Shown: positions 13,293 through 21,111 of the stretch, piece by piece
Layout: each line of letters opens with the position of its first letter
How positions within the stretch are numbered: the stretch's first letter is position 1
Origin: Halosolutus halophilus
GTDB taxonomy: Archaea > Halobacteriota > Halobacteria > Halobacteriales > Natrialbaceae
DNA length: 64,000 nt
NCBI RefSeq assembly: GCF_022869805.1
Contig: NZ_CP094974.1
Span: forward strand, 3,720,001-3,784,000
Direction of reading: 5' to 3'
Position numbers and translations under genes: made by a program
The notes under the pieces: generated by a model
Database searches by the model: none
The model's input: the letters and a program-made list of their open reading frames with translations, nothing else
Told to the model about the DNA's origin: nothing

Positions 13293-14228
13293 GTGACCGT
13301 CGACCGCACCTCCCAGACCGATGTCGTCGTCCTCGGCGGTGGTTCGACGGGCTGTGGCATCGCTCGCGATCTCGCGATGCGCGGGATAGAGGTCACGCTC
13401 GTCGAGAAGGGAAACCTGACCCACGGGACGACAGGCCGGATGCACGGGTTACTCCACAGCGGCGGTCGGTACGCCGTCTCGGACAAGGAGAGCGCGAAAG
13501 AGTGCGTCCAGGAAAACTACGTCCTCCAGGAGATCGCGGATCACTGTATCGAAATGACCGGCGGACTCTTCGTCAAACGGCCCGAGGATACCGACGAGTA
13601 CTTCAGAAAGAAATTGCGAGGGTGCCGGGAGTGTGATATCCCGACCAAAGTACTCACCGGGGAGCAGGCCCGCGAGATGGAGCCGTACCTCGCGACCGAT
13701 ATCGACCGCGCGATCTGGGTTCCCGACGGAGCCGACGTGATCGCTTCCTGTACCTCCTGTTCGCTGTCGCTTCGTCAGGGGTACCCGGAGCTATTCGACA
13801 TCGAGGGCACCGAGGACGTCTCCGACGATACGTTCGAGGCCCTCGAGTATCTCCGTATCCACGAGAACCTCGAGTCGGAACTCGACGACACGACGGTCGA
13901 CTTTCCGGACCTCGCCTACCACGCCCCCTGTCACGCCCGGAACCAGGGCCTTGCTCGGCAAGCCCTCGAGACGTTTCGCGAGGTGGAGGGGGTCACCATC
14001 GAAGACGTCGGCGACTCCTGTTCGGGCATCTCCGGAACCCACGGCTGGAAAGCGGAGAAGTACCACACCTCGATGGAGATCGGTGAGGAGATGTTTCACC
14101 ACATGGCCGACGCCGAAGGCGACGTCGGGATGATCGAGTGCCCGACGTGTGCGATGCAGATGGAACACGGAACGGGCTACGAGATCCGACATCCGCTCCA
14201 ACTGCTCGAGGCCGCGCTGGTGGAGTGA
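13293..14228 (+). CDS. GlpA'-'GlpC chimera: N-terminus of glycerol-3-phosphate dehydrogenase subunit A fused to C-terminus of subunit C
   Basis: Residues 1-147 (GTG start) are the FAD-binding front of Glp[21 protein letters not shown] (dinucleotide site), then [20 protein letters not shown] and CRECDIP. At [13 protein letters not shown] (about nt 13734) the protein switches in frame to the tail of Glp[18 protein letters not shown], then the CCG iron-sulfur domain [40 protein letters not shown]. Normal GlpA is about 560-590 aa and GlpC about 430-450. The remaining parts and all of GlpB are absent, so a deletion of roughly 3 kb removed 3'-glpA, glpB and 5'-glpC. The chimera lacks the GlpA catalytic region, so G3P oxidation is very unlikely. 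GlpK follows 204 nt downstream. Confidence 0.85.
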
Positions 14229-15973: not shown

Positions 15974-16125
15974 ATGCGAGTTCATCATCGCGCTTGTGAT
16001 CGCCGGGTTCGCCGGTGGACCGTTCGGGGCTGCGATCGGCTCACTGCCGGCGTTCGTCTTCACCGGTTCATGGTCATCGCGGGTGAGAGTTCCACGTACG
16101 TCATTCCCGAGTTGGGGGGGATTAC
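15974..16125 (+). pseudogene. Remnant of a glycerol-locus membrane protein
   Basis: Just after glpK a hydrophobic sequence reads EFIIALVIAGFAGGPFGAAI, then SLPAFVFTG in one frame, and after a 1-nt shift near 16066 continues FMVIAGESSTYVIPELGG in another. The true start codon is also out of frame (ATG at 15974). This looks like the N-terminal 50 or so residues of an integral membrane protein normally encoded downstream of glpK in haloarchaeal glycerol clusters; the exact family is from memory and tentative. The rest of the gene is missing. Confidence 0.5.
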
Positions 16126-16240
16126 CAGCGTGCTCGCGTTCTGCGCCCCGAAGCTGCGTGTCTGTGCTGAAGCCGACAGCGAAGAACGAGTCCGTGACCT
16201 GCTCGAGGACGGGGGGAGCGTCGTCGAACCACTGATCTGA
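16126..16240 (+). pseudogene. C-terminal scrap of a phosphohexomutase-like protein
   Basis: The last 30 or so codons before the TGA at 16238 read APKLRVCAEADSEERVRDLL. This matches the C-terminal phosphate-binding domain of phosphoglucosamine/phosphomannomutases, where the family motif is RPSGTEPKLRVYAEA. The SGTE part is gone and the stretch is joined directly to the preceding membrane-protein remnant. It probably marks the far side of a deletion; the adjacent nucleotidyltransferase is a typical partner of such mutases. Confidence 0.5.
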
Positions 16241-17638: not shown

Positions 17639-18335
17639 GGTGCTGTTCAGATTAGAGTTTGAAGGAACGAGCCGGTGAATTTCGTGGTGTCAATGTCAGA
17701 ATCCACCGGCCTCGACGGCTCTAGCACGGAGATTCAGTTAGGCTTTGTGGAGCGTGAGGCGACACCGCACGAGCTGGTGCAGTCGCGTACCAGCACAATC
17801 CGCCCGAATTGTCACATTCGGATACTGTTTCTACCTTAGAGAAATACGGTGTCAAACGGACAGAATCGATCGTCCACGACTGGGTGCAGAAAGCCGAACT
17901 ACAGCCGACAGAAGGGAAACGACCGGATCACGTTGCGCTTGACGAACCCGTGATCCAACTCGGGGATCAGCGCTACTGGCTGTACGCTGCGATCGATCCC
18001 AAAACGAACGAATTCCCGCATATCTGGCTCTATCCAACGCGGACAATTGCGCTGACGTCGATATTTCTCGGTGAACTTCGAGAAAAACACGATATCGCTG
18101 ACGCCGTATTTCTCGTCGATTCAGCGCCGTTGCTCAAAGCCGCGCTCCACGATCTAGGACTCCGATTTCGATACGAAAGACACGGAAGTCGGAACGCTGC
18201 CGAACATGTCTTTTAAGAAATACAACACCATACCTACCAGCTTGAAGACTATTTTAGAAACGCCGAACATGAAACCGTCGAAACAAGGCTTCAGAGCTAC
18301 GCATGCTGCTGAAACCAGCTAATCTGAACAATGCC
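17639..18335 (+). mobile_element. Degenerate IS6-family insertion sequence (697 bp)
   Basis: The element is bounded by imperfect inverted ends: GGTGCTGTTCAGATTAG at the left and, read on the other strand, GGCATTGTTCAGATTAG at the right. Length and ends fit haloarchaeal IS6-type elements. The 8-bp flanks (ATTATACC left, AGTGCGTG right) do not match, so no target-site duplication survives. This suggests recombination after insertion. It carries one broken transposase gene. Confidence 0.8.
17693..18327 (+). pseudogene. IS6-family transposase, inactivated
   Basis: The N-terminus (ATG 17693, MSESTGLDGSSTEIQLGF, then VEREATPHELV) shifts frame near 17780 into the main body (AVAYQHNPPELSHSD, then YGVKRTESIVHDWVQKAEL, VALDEPVIQLGDQRYWLYAA, DPKTNEFPHIW). 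The DDE core is recognisable: D in LDEP and D in FLVDSAP. The frame then hits TAA at 18214 and TGA at 18310, although the protein continues sensibly between and after them (YFRNAEHETVETRLQSYACC). One frameshift and two nonsense codons make it non-functional. Confidence 0.8.
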
Positions 18336-18970: not shown

Positions 18971-19100
18971 GGCTTCTCTGAGCCAACCGAGAGCACATCC
19001 ATACCAGTTGGTTCCCGATTATGGAGAATATTCGGCTGTCATCACTGTCCAGCGTATTGAACGTCGAGAGTTCTATCAATCATGAATGGTGGTTGCAGGG

Positions 19101-19176
19101 GTCGTGCTAAATACAGGGCGCGAATGTCGCACGAGATATGGCTCGATTTGCGAAGGTACTGATCGCTCAGTACAGG
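19101..19176. repeat. Dispersed repeat R2, copy a
   Basis: A 76-bp segment from GTCGTGCTAAATACAG to GATCGCTCAGTACAGG. It recurs in the same orientation at 21112-21187 with roughly 80 percent identity by eye, sharing GCGCGAATGT, ATTTGCGAAGGT and GATCGCTCAGTA. The left end (CGTGCTAAATACAG) resembles the right terminus of the R1 family. Confidence 0.7.
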
Positions 19177-19240
19177 ACAACCAACCACCACCGAGTGGAA
19201 GACCAAAAGGCACATATGTAAATATAGTGAAAATTAAATT

Positions 19241-19474: not shown

Positions 19475-19583
19475 CCGATTGGGAAAAGAGCGTGCTATAG
19501 AAGGTGCAAGTCTGGCAGTGTCTCGTCGATAGAGGATCTTCCTGAACCCTGCTGCGCCACACCTCGTGGTCGGCGCCTGTCTG

Positions 19584-20897
19584 TTAGCCAACTAGACAGC
19601 GACCGGCTACCTCGAACGAGCACTCGCCGAACGCGTGGAGGTTTCCGCGGTTCGACCCGAGGAAGACGAGGTCAGAGGTGACCGCCGGAGTCCCCCTGCC
19701 GGCGTCTTCGTTGCGGCCCATCTCTGCGCGACCGAGTTCCGCGCCCGTTGCAGCGTCGACGACGAACAGGTGCCCGTACATCGTATCCCGCTGGATCCAG
19801 CCCGTGGCGTAGACTGCATCACCGGAAACGACCGGCGTCGAGACGAGATCGACCTGTGGCTCGCCCTGCGGGCGCTTGCCCTCGTCGGGACCAAACCGCC
19901 ACACCCGCTCACCCGTCTCGAGACGGCGGGCCTCGAGGCCGAAAGCCGCGGCATGATAGATCAGCCCGTCAGCGACGGTCACTCCCGCATCTGACCAGCG
20001 GGGTCCGATCGATCGCTGCCAGCGAAGCGATCGGTCATCGCGGTCTAGCGCGACGAGCGTGTGCTGCTCGTCGTCCTGGTGCCAGAGCGGCACGAGCAGC
20101 AGGTCGTTGACCACGGTCGGGGTCCCGGTGATAGGCCCCTCCCAGCGCCAGCGTTCCTCGCCAGTCGCCAGATCGAGCGCGGCGAGCCCGTCGTGAGAGA
20201 ACGGAACGTAGACCACGTCGTCGGTGCCGGCCAGTTGCCACATGCTTGTCCGCTCGGGGAAGGGCACGCTCCAGCGTTCGTTCCCGGTCGCGGGATCGAT
20301 GCCGTAGACTGTTTCGTCTTGGTGGTCGTCGACGACTGTGCTGTACGTCCCCGTCACGACGACATCGTCGGTCACGACGGGCGTGACGGCATCGGGCGAT
20401 TGCTGGGCACGAGAGAGGTTCTCGAAAGTCCACTGGACCTCCTCGTCGGTGGTGAGCATCGTCACGCCGGGCTTGGTCTGGAGGACTACCCGGTCGCCGT
20501 CGACGACCGTCGAATCCGAGGGGTAGAAGTAGTGGAACTCGTCGGTCCGGGAGAGCTCGGTCGTCCACCGGGAGTCACCGGTCGCCGCGTCGAACGCCTC
20601 GATCCACGCCCCGCCGCGTTCGTCACCTCGCGACTCCTGTGAATATGCAAAGTAGAGCACGCCATCGTCGACGACTGGAGAAGGGGCAACCCCGCCGCTA
20701 CGCAATCGCTCCCGATGCCAGACTGTGTGAAGGTCCGTCGTCGGCCCCTCTGTGGTCGAGTACCCGGTGTGGGCGTTATTCAGCGTGCGTCTGGGCCAGT
20801 TGCCGTCGGCGGTCGGTTGCTCGGTCGAGATGCATCCCGCGAGTGCACCGATCCCGGCGGTACACGCTGCGAGAACCGACCGACGTGTGGAGGGCAT
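19584..20897 (-). CDS. PQQ-binding-like beta-propeller lipoprotein
   Basis: The 437-residue product starts MPSTRRSVLAACTAGIGA and has a lipobox (ALAGC at about residues 19-23), so it is anchored outside the membrane, probably via Tat (STRRSVLAA). The mature part has repeating PQQ/BamB-like blades, seen as recurring A.D..TG...W segments (AFDAATGDSRWTTEL, GIDPATGNERWSVPF, ALDLATGEERWRWEG, VVDAATGAELGRAEM). Such propellers usually serve as scaffolds or enzyme modules; no catalytic residues can be assigned. It stands alone, between the R2 repeats. Confidence 0.85.
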   Translation of the reverse strand: MPSTRRSVLAACTAGIGALAGCISTEQPTADGNWPRRTLNNAHTGYSTTEGPTTDLHTVWHRERLRSGGVAPSPVVDDGVLYFAYSQESRGDERGGAWIEAFDAATGDSRWTTELSRTDEFHYFYPSDSTVVDGDRVVLQTKPGVTMLTTDEEVQWTFENLSRAQQSPDAVTPVVTDDVVVTGTYSTVVDDHQDETVYGIDPATGNERWSVPFPERTSMWQLAGTDDVVYVPFSHDGLAALDLATGEERWRWEGPITGTPTVVNDLLLVPLWHQDDEQHTLVALDRDDRSLRWQRSIGPRWSDAGVTVADGLIYHAAAFGLEARRLETGERVWRFGPDEGKRPQGEPQVDLVSTPVVSGDAVYATGWIQRDTMYGHLFVVDAATGAELGRAEMGRNEDAGRGTPAVTSDLVFLGSNRGNLHAFGECSFEVAGRCLVG

Positions 20898-21111
20898 TGG
20901 TCCGGGAGTTATCGTGGCGTAAGGTATAGACTTCGGTCGTCCAGCACGAACGCTGCCGGAGGGAGGACGTACCCGCCCGTACGCGCTTGTCGGCGCCGAA
21001 GTACACAGATCCAGAACGGCGGGCTGGAACCGCGGACATCGAACCAGGAGCTAAAGCCATCCGCTGTATCCAGCGCGTCATTTCTGACAGAATCTGGATC
21101 GGTCGCGCTGA

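Follow-up and report, generated by a model that had tools for sequence, protein, structure and literature searches.

The open reading frame at positions 13293–14228 of the window, the 64,000-nucleotide stretch analysed here (G000:C1:3720001-3784000 of a single 5.06 Mb contig), joins the start of a glpA gene to the end of a glpC gene and is most likely a recent, dispensable pseudogene; the fusion, the size of the missing segment in relatives, the intact second copy and the decayed surroundings are observed, as is the lack of a like fusion in the genomes sampled, and the lateral origin, the recency, the lack of function and the deletion mechanism are inferences. The explanation that we favour, with a probability of about 0.88, is that a second glp locus was acquired, that a repeat-mediated deletion removed about 3.5 kb of it, and that the chimera is the young and harmless in-frame remnant. 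The features of the locus are as follows.

13293–14228, + strand: GlpA′-′GlpC chimera, a single open reading frame of 311 residues with a GTG start and no internal stops
13293–13733, + strand: glpA′, the first 147 codons of a gene for glycerol-3-phosphate dehydrogenase subunit A
13725–13734, + strand: deletion joint, the one remaining copy of the putative common word GACGGAGCC(G), placed by aligning the parent sites of relatives at the joint
13734–14228, + strand: ′glpC, the last 164 codons
14433–15968, + strand: glpK, the second copy in the genome, a full-length glycerol kinase gene (TIGR01311, 705 bits against a cut-off of 590)
15987–16240, + strand: second broken fusion, the frameshifted start of a membrane gene followed by a phosphohexomutase tail
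17640–18330, + strand: dead IS6-type insertion sequence with a broken transposase (weak DDE_Tnp_IS240 match, under the cut-off) and terminal repeats around TGTTCAGATTAG

In profile searches, residues 10–147 of the chimera matched the N-terminus of GlpA (TIGR03377, profile positions 1–138 of 530, E=8e-66) and residues 124–310 matched the C-terminus of GlpC (NF008369, profile positions 218–400 of 401, E=1e-63), bearing out the original prediction that 147 residues of GlpA and the last 164 residues of GlpC share one frame. Pfam returned positions 1–145 of 353 of the DAO domain and one CCG domain, with Fer4 and BFD both absent. The GlpA′ half keeps the Rossmann/FAD N-terminus (GGGSTGCG) and lacks the remainder of the DAO fold as well as the BFD [2Fe-2S] domain. 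The ′GlpC half keeps the second cysteine-rich (CCG) domain with the cysteine motifs CTSC, CH, CSG and CPTC, and lacks the ferredoxin-like 4Fe-4S part and the first CCG domain. Where membership of GlpA was defined as a score above the curated cut-off of 552.8 bits together with a complete DAO fold and a BFD [2Fe-2S] domain, the chimera scored 222.6 bits. Where membership of GlpC was defined as scores above 278 bits (NF008369) and 279.9 bits (TIGR03379) together with a 4Fe-4S dicluster domain and two CCG domains, it scored 215.4 and 102 bits. No glpB lies beside the chimera, so that the arrangement which defines the GlpABC complex, a glpB adjoining glpA and glpC, is not found at this locus. With the greater part of the FAD/substrate fold gone, with neither the [2Fe-2S] domain nor the 4Fe-4S module, with a single CCG domain left and with GlpB missing, the chimera is predicted to be inactive as a glycerol-3-phosphate dehydrogenase.

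The same genome carries an intact glpA-glpB-glpC set, accompanied by glpK in divergent orientation and the membrane gene that belongs to it, at about 3118.3–3125.6 kb, 0.6 Mb from the chimera. In this native set GlpA is complete in its DAO fold and carries the BFD [2Fe-2S] domain, GlpB has an FAD_binding_2 domain, and GlpC has a Fer4 domain (Fer4_8) and two stretches of CCG. The genome contains two glpK genes in total and a single glpB (C1:3119709-3121040), which belongs to the intact operon; the lack of GlpB at the chimera and the intact GlpK next to it had both been correctly described. A search for a second glpABC set had also been advised, and this complete glpABC-glpK locus is the outcome. 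The claim that most of an operon had been deleted holds, with the correction that the deletion struck a second, probably acquired, locus. Because intact glpABC-glpK genes are present elsewhere, the organism should still be capable of glycerol-3-phosphate oxidation. Two kinase/dehydrogenase pairs have been described as rare (PMC11962113).

In intact relatives glpA, glpB and glpC are separate genes, and across 90 intact loci the two sites that correspond to the joint are 3339–3934 bases apart, with a median of 3521. This alignment to related glpABC-glpK loci had been put forward as a check on the deletion; the separate genes, the spacing of the sites and the position of the joint on a short common word all agree with it, with the missing segment being about 3.5 kb (3.34–3.93 kb) rather than the roughly 3 kb first estimated. 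At the joint site glpA encodes P-D-G/A-A-V/I-D-P (alignment of the 90 intact loci), and glpC of the Halorubrum-like and native groups encodes (E/D)-(D/G/E)-G-A-D-V/I-I/V-A in the same phase as glpA. The window reads P-D-G-A-D-V-I-A, and the crossover therefore falls inside GACGGAGCC(G). When relatives are aligned, this word corresponds to Asp-Gly-Ala codons in the same phase in both parent genes, and intact relatives usually encode Asp-Gly-Ala or something close to it at both sites. The GCCGA said to be repeated in the joint occurs only once in GGAGCCGACGTG; as the deletion repeat it was replaced by GACGGAGCC(G), the D-G-A codons of the relatives' glpA and glpC.

We found no intact direct parent of the second glp locus; its precise sequence, like the length of the common repeat (about 9–10 bp), is inferred from relatives. 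The two joint sites are identical over 11 bp in relative L140 and over 10 bp in relatives L143 and L088, and many relatives have just 2–7 bases in common there. Because the sites are identical over 10–11 bases in these three relatives, a repeat-mediated deletion at the joint is plausible. The short direct repeat in the parent genes that is looked for in a deletion-derived fusion pseudogene was thus found, with relatives standing in for the direct parent. The chance that at least 9 bp would be common to a random glpA/glpC breakpoint is about 1.5e-4 (P). The glpA and glpC genes of intact relatives share 25–42 words of 9 bp or more, and the D-G-A site is one among many possible deletion sites and not always the longest.

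With D-G-A codons in the same phase in both parents, an in-frame joint would follow automatically. In six loci, 161 of the 205 words of at least 9 bases that are common to glpA and glpC were in phase (79%), and for 9-bp words common to general gene pairs the figure was 74%. In 15 genes of this genome, 60% of common 6-base words were in phase, and the share climbed with word length to reach 81% at 11 bases. Words of 9–11 bp common to different genes are thus in the same codon phase in 74–81% of cases, not 33%, in counts that drew on genes of the window and of relative L009; the strong codon-position bias of GC-rich genes is the likely cause. An in-frame joint is the default outcome of microhomology deletion in this genome and carries little information on selection. 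The clean frame had been taken to mean that the deletion is recent or that the protein is retained; the 311 codons are indeed free of stops, and the argument for retention falls away because common words are mostly in phase between genes here. Selection inferred from the open frame was rejected for this reason. As a general caution, drawn from 15 genes, microhomology deletions in this genome should give in-frame chimeras by default, and in so GC-rich a genome a frame that stays open through a joint of this kind says little in favour of selection.

Among the matches listed for 61 relatives, 125 family genomes and 392 order-level genomes, which are overlapping sets, none spanned the joint, and the window alone covered both halves; the listed matches end at chimera residue ∼147–162 on the GlpA side or begin at ∼120–145 on the GlpC side. 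A scan of GTDB contigs with the chimera gave 80 loci, all half matches, and none of 157 plasmid records covered 80% of it, in collections some of which may lack the host genome or very near genomes. A family of short fused genes of conserved length across genomes, which the original prediction had named as the finding that would tell against it, was searched for and not found. A conserved short GlpA-GlpC fusion family was accordingly rejected, with no second fusion in the family, order or plasmid sets; the fusion is a private deletion remnant and not a gene family.

The state of the two halves bears on whether selection has kept the chimera as a small FAD-plus-CCG protein with a new electron-transfer or regulatory role. 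The 'GlpC half deviates at three columns where 81 other sequences show no variation (E16G, Y103H and T134I, in half numbering), the most of any row; GlpK differs at 4 of 225 invariant positions and the GlpA′ half at none of 57. The GC3 of the chimera is 0.80–0.82, like that of the adjoining glpK, and its codon use looks normal. Retention would be in keeping with the 311 open codons, the 57 of 57 GlpA positions, the four cysteine motifs and the glpK-like GC3. It is at odds with an FAD fold cut at DAO 145/353 and devoid of its substrate parts, with the three altered GlpC residues, with the presence of the fusion in one genome only among those sampled, and with the expectation of in-frame joints without selection; we consider it very improbable. 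Just as small is the chance that the deletion gave rise to a new 311-residue protein under selection, in which half an FAD-binding fold is linked with an entire CCG iron-sulfur domain and which might, for instance, modulate the native GlpABC complex. The clean frame, the normal codon use, the intact invariant positions of the GlpA half and the second CCG domain, kept with its cysteines, do count against decay, which is not far advanced. The terminal branches of the two halves are long (0.29 and 0.32), as is that of GlpK (0.21), against medians of 0.078, 0.078 and 0.048. Relative to the medians, the halves and GlpK have branches lengthened to a similar degree, which suggests that most of the change is older than the deletion and that the deletion is probably recent.

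Within 4 kb of the chimera lie both the second broken fusion and the dead insertion sequence, which has several related copies in the genome. The fusion at 15987–16240 retains, at most, codons ∼8–60 of a conserved membrane gene, the one located after glpK in relatives (aligned to the intact L009 gene, in two frames). Its last part, 16145–16240, is the last 31 codons of a phosphohexomutase, and in 17 of 21 genomes it matches the 3′ end of a longer open frame; the genome's own intact copy has the motifs TASHNP and RPSGTEP. The first 24 kb of the window are gene-poor with a GC content of 53–63%, compared with mostly 64–70% beyond 26 kb. This segment looks like an acquired island, and the chimera looks like one of several signs of erosion in it. 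The decayed neighbour also fits real decay rather than an assembly error, in which the true chromosome would have an intact second glpABC and the assembler would have skipped 3.5 kb. Given a single 5.06 Mb contig and a common word of just ∼9–10 bp, such an error is highly unlikely; collapse with the other glp copy was rejected, since an identity of 64–74% is too low for it.

Positions 1–24000 also carry a trehalose synthase-like treT, a HAD-type phosphatase gene, an e2b2-like gene and a nucleotidyltransferase gene with paralogues elsewhere. The sequence that separates the chimera from the e2b2-like gene had no match among those listed in relatives. A repeat of about 70–95 bases at 19091–19185, neither a tRNA nor an Rfam family, has ∼25 copies at 77–93% identity across the genome and some in relatives. 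The PQQ-propeller protein gene at 19497–20941 has an 84% identical copy at G000:C1:858267-859711. There were no RNA families near the locus and no tRNAs in the window.

The second GlpK is 78% identical to the other copy (G000:C1:3123019-3124539). The GlpA′ half is 74% identical to the genome's own GlpA and 81% to that of Halobellus captivus, and the ′GlpC half is 64% identical to the genome's own GlpC and 82% to that of Halorubrum salinum. In the ′GlpC tree the half shares a clade (SH-aLRT 92) with Halorubrum, Haloglomus and genomes related to them; in the GlpA′ tree it falls in a 20-row clade of the same kinds of genomes with the native family copies outside (97), the trees of both halves being weak at ∼150 residues. 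The second GlpK groups with a Halobacteriales metagenome genome, apart from the native copy (99). All three trees agree in suggesting that the second locus did not arise by recent duplication of the native operon, and lateral acquisition from other haloarchaea is apparently the simplest explanation. Most relatives have glpK and glpA in divergent orientation. At the second locus glpK comes after ′glpC and shares its strand, and a few genomes, e.g. G349 and G412, have this order too; a second glpABC set is also present in a few other family genomes (G028, G068 and G086). Since the whole locus looks foreign, the deletion could have taken place in the donor and the fusion, also a dead remnant, could have arrived ready-made; no donor-like genome carrying the fusion was found and this step is superfluous for explaining the data, and we regard it as unlikely.

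Under the favoured explanation, the lineage would have gained, from another haloarchaeon, glpA-glpB-glpC-glpK together with the membrane gene that usually lies downstream. A later deletion of some 3.5 kb, running from one short direct repeat (glpA codons 145–147) to another (the matching D-G-A codons of glpC), would have taken out the remainder of glpA, glpB as a whole and the initial ∼60% of glpC. With both repeats encoding the same residues in the same phase, the joint would be in frame without selection, and the chimera would persist as something young and harmless while the native glpABC-glpK supplies the activity. Taken alone, the chimera is the ordinary remnant of a redundant, probably acquired operon, a case of ordinary gene decay. 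It does carry a risk for annotation, in that the stump may be named GlpA or GlpC and misread as a loss or a novelty of glycerol catabolism.

Compared with the anaerobic-type GlpABC glycerol-3-phosphate dehydrogenase of haloarchaea and E. coli, the locus contains clearly recognisable parts of GlpA and GlpC with glpK after them, but it has no GlpB, ∼74% of GlpA and 60% of GlpC are gone, and the scores lie far under the family cut-offs. With the in-frame fusion pseudogenes that deletions leave behind in redundant or acquired operons it shares the short word at the joint, the intact second copy elsewhere, the decayed neighbours and the dead insertion sequence, and it differs from them only in that its frame is still fully open.
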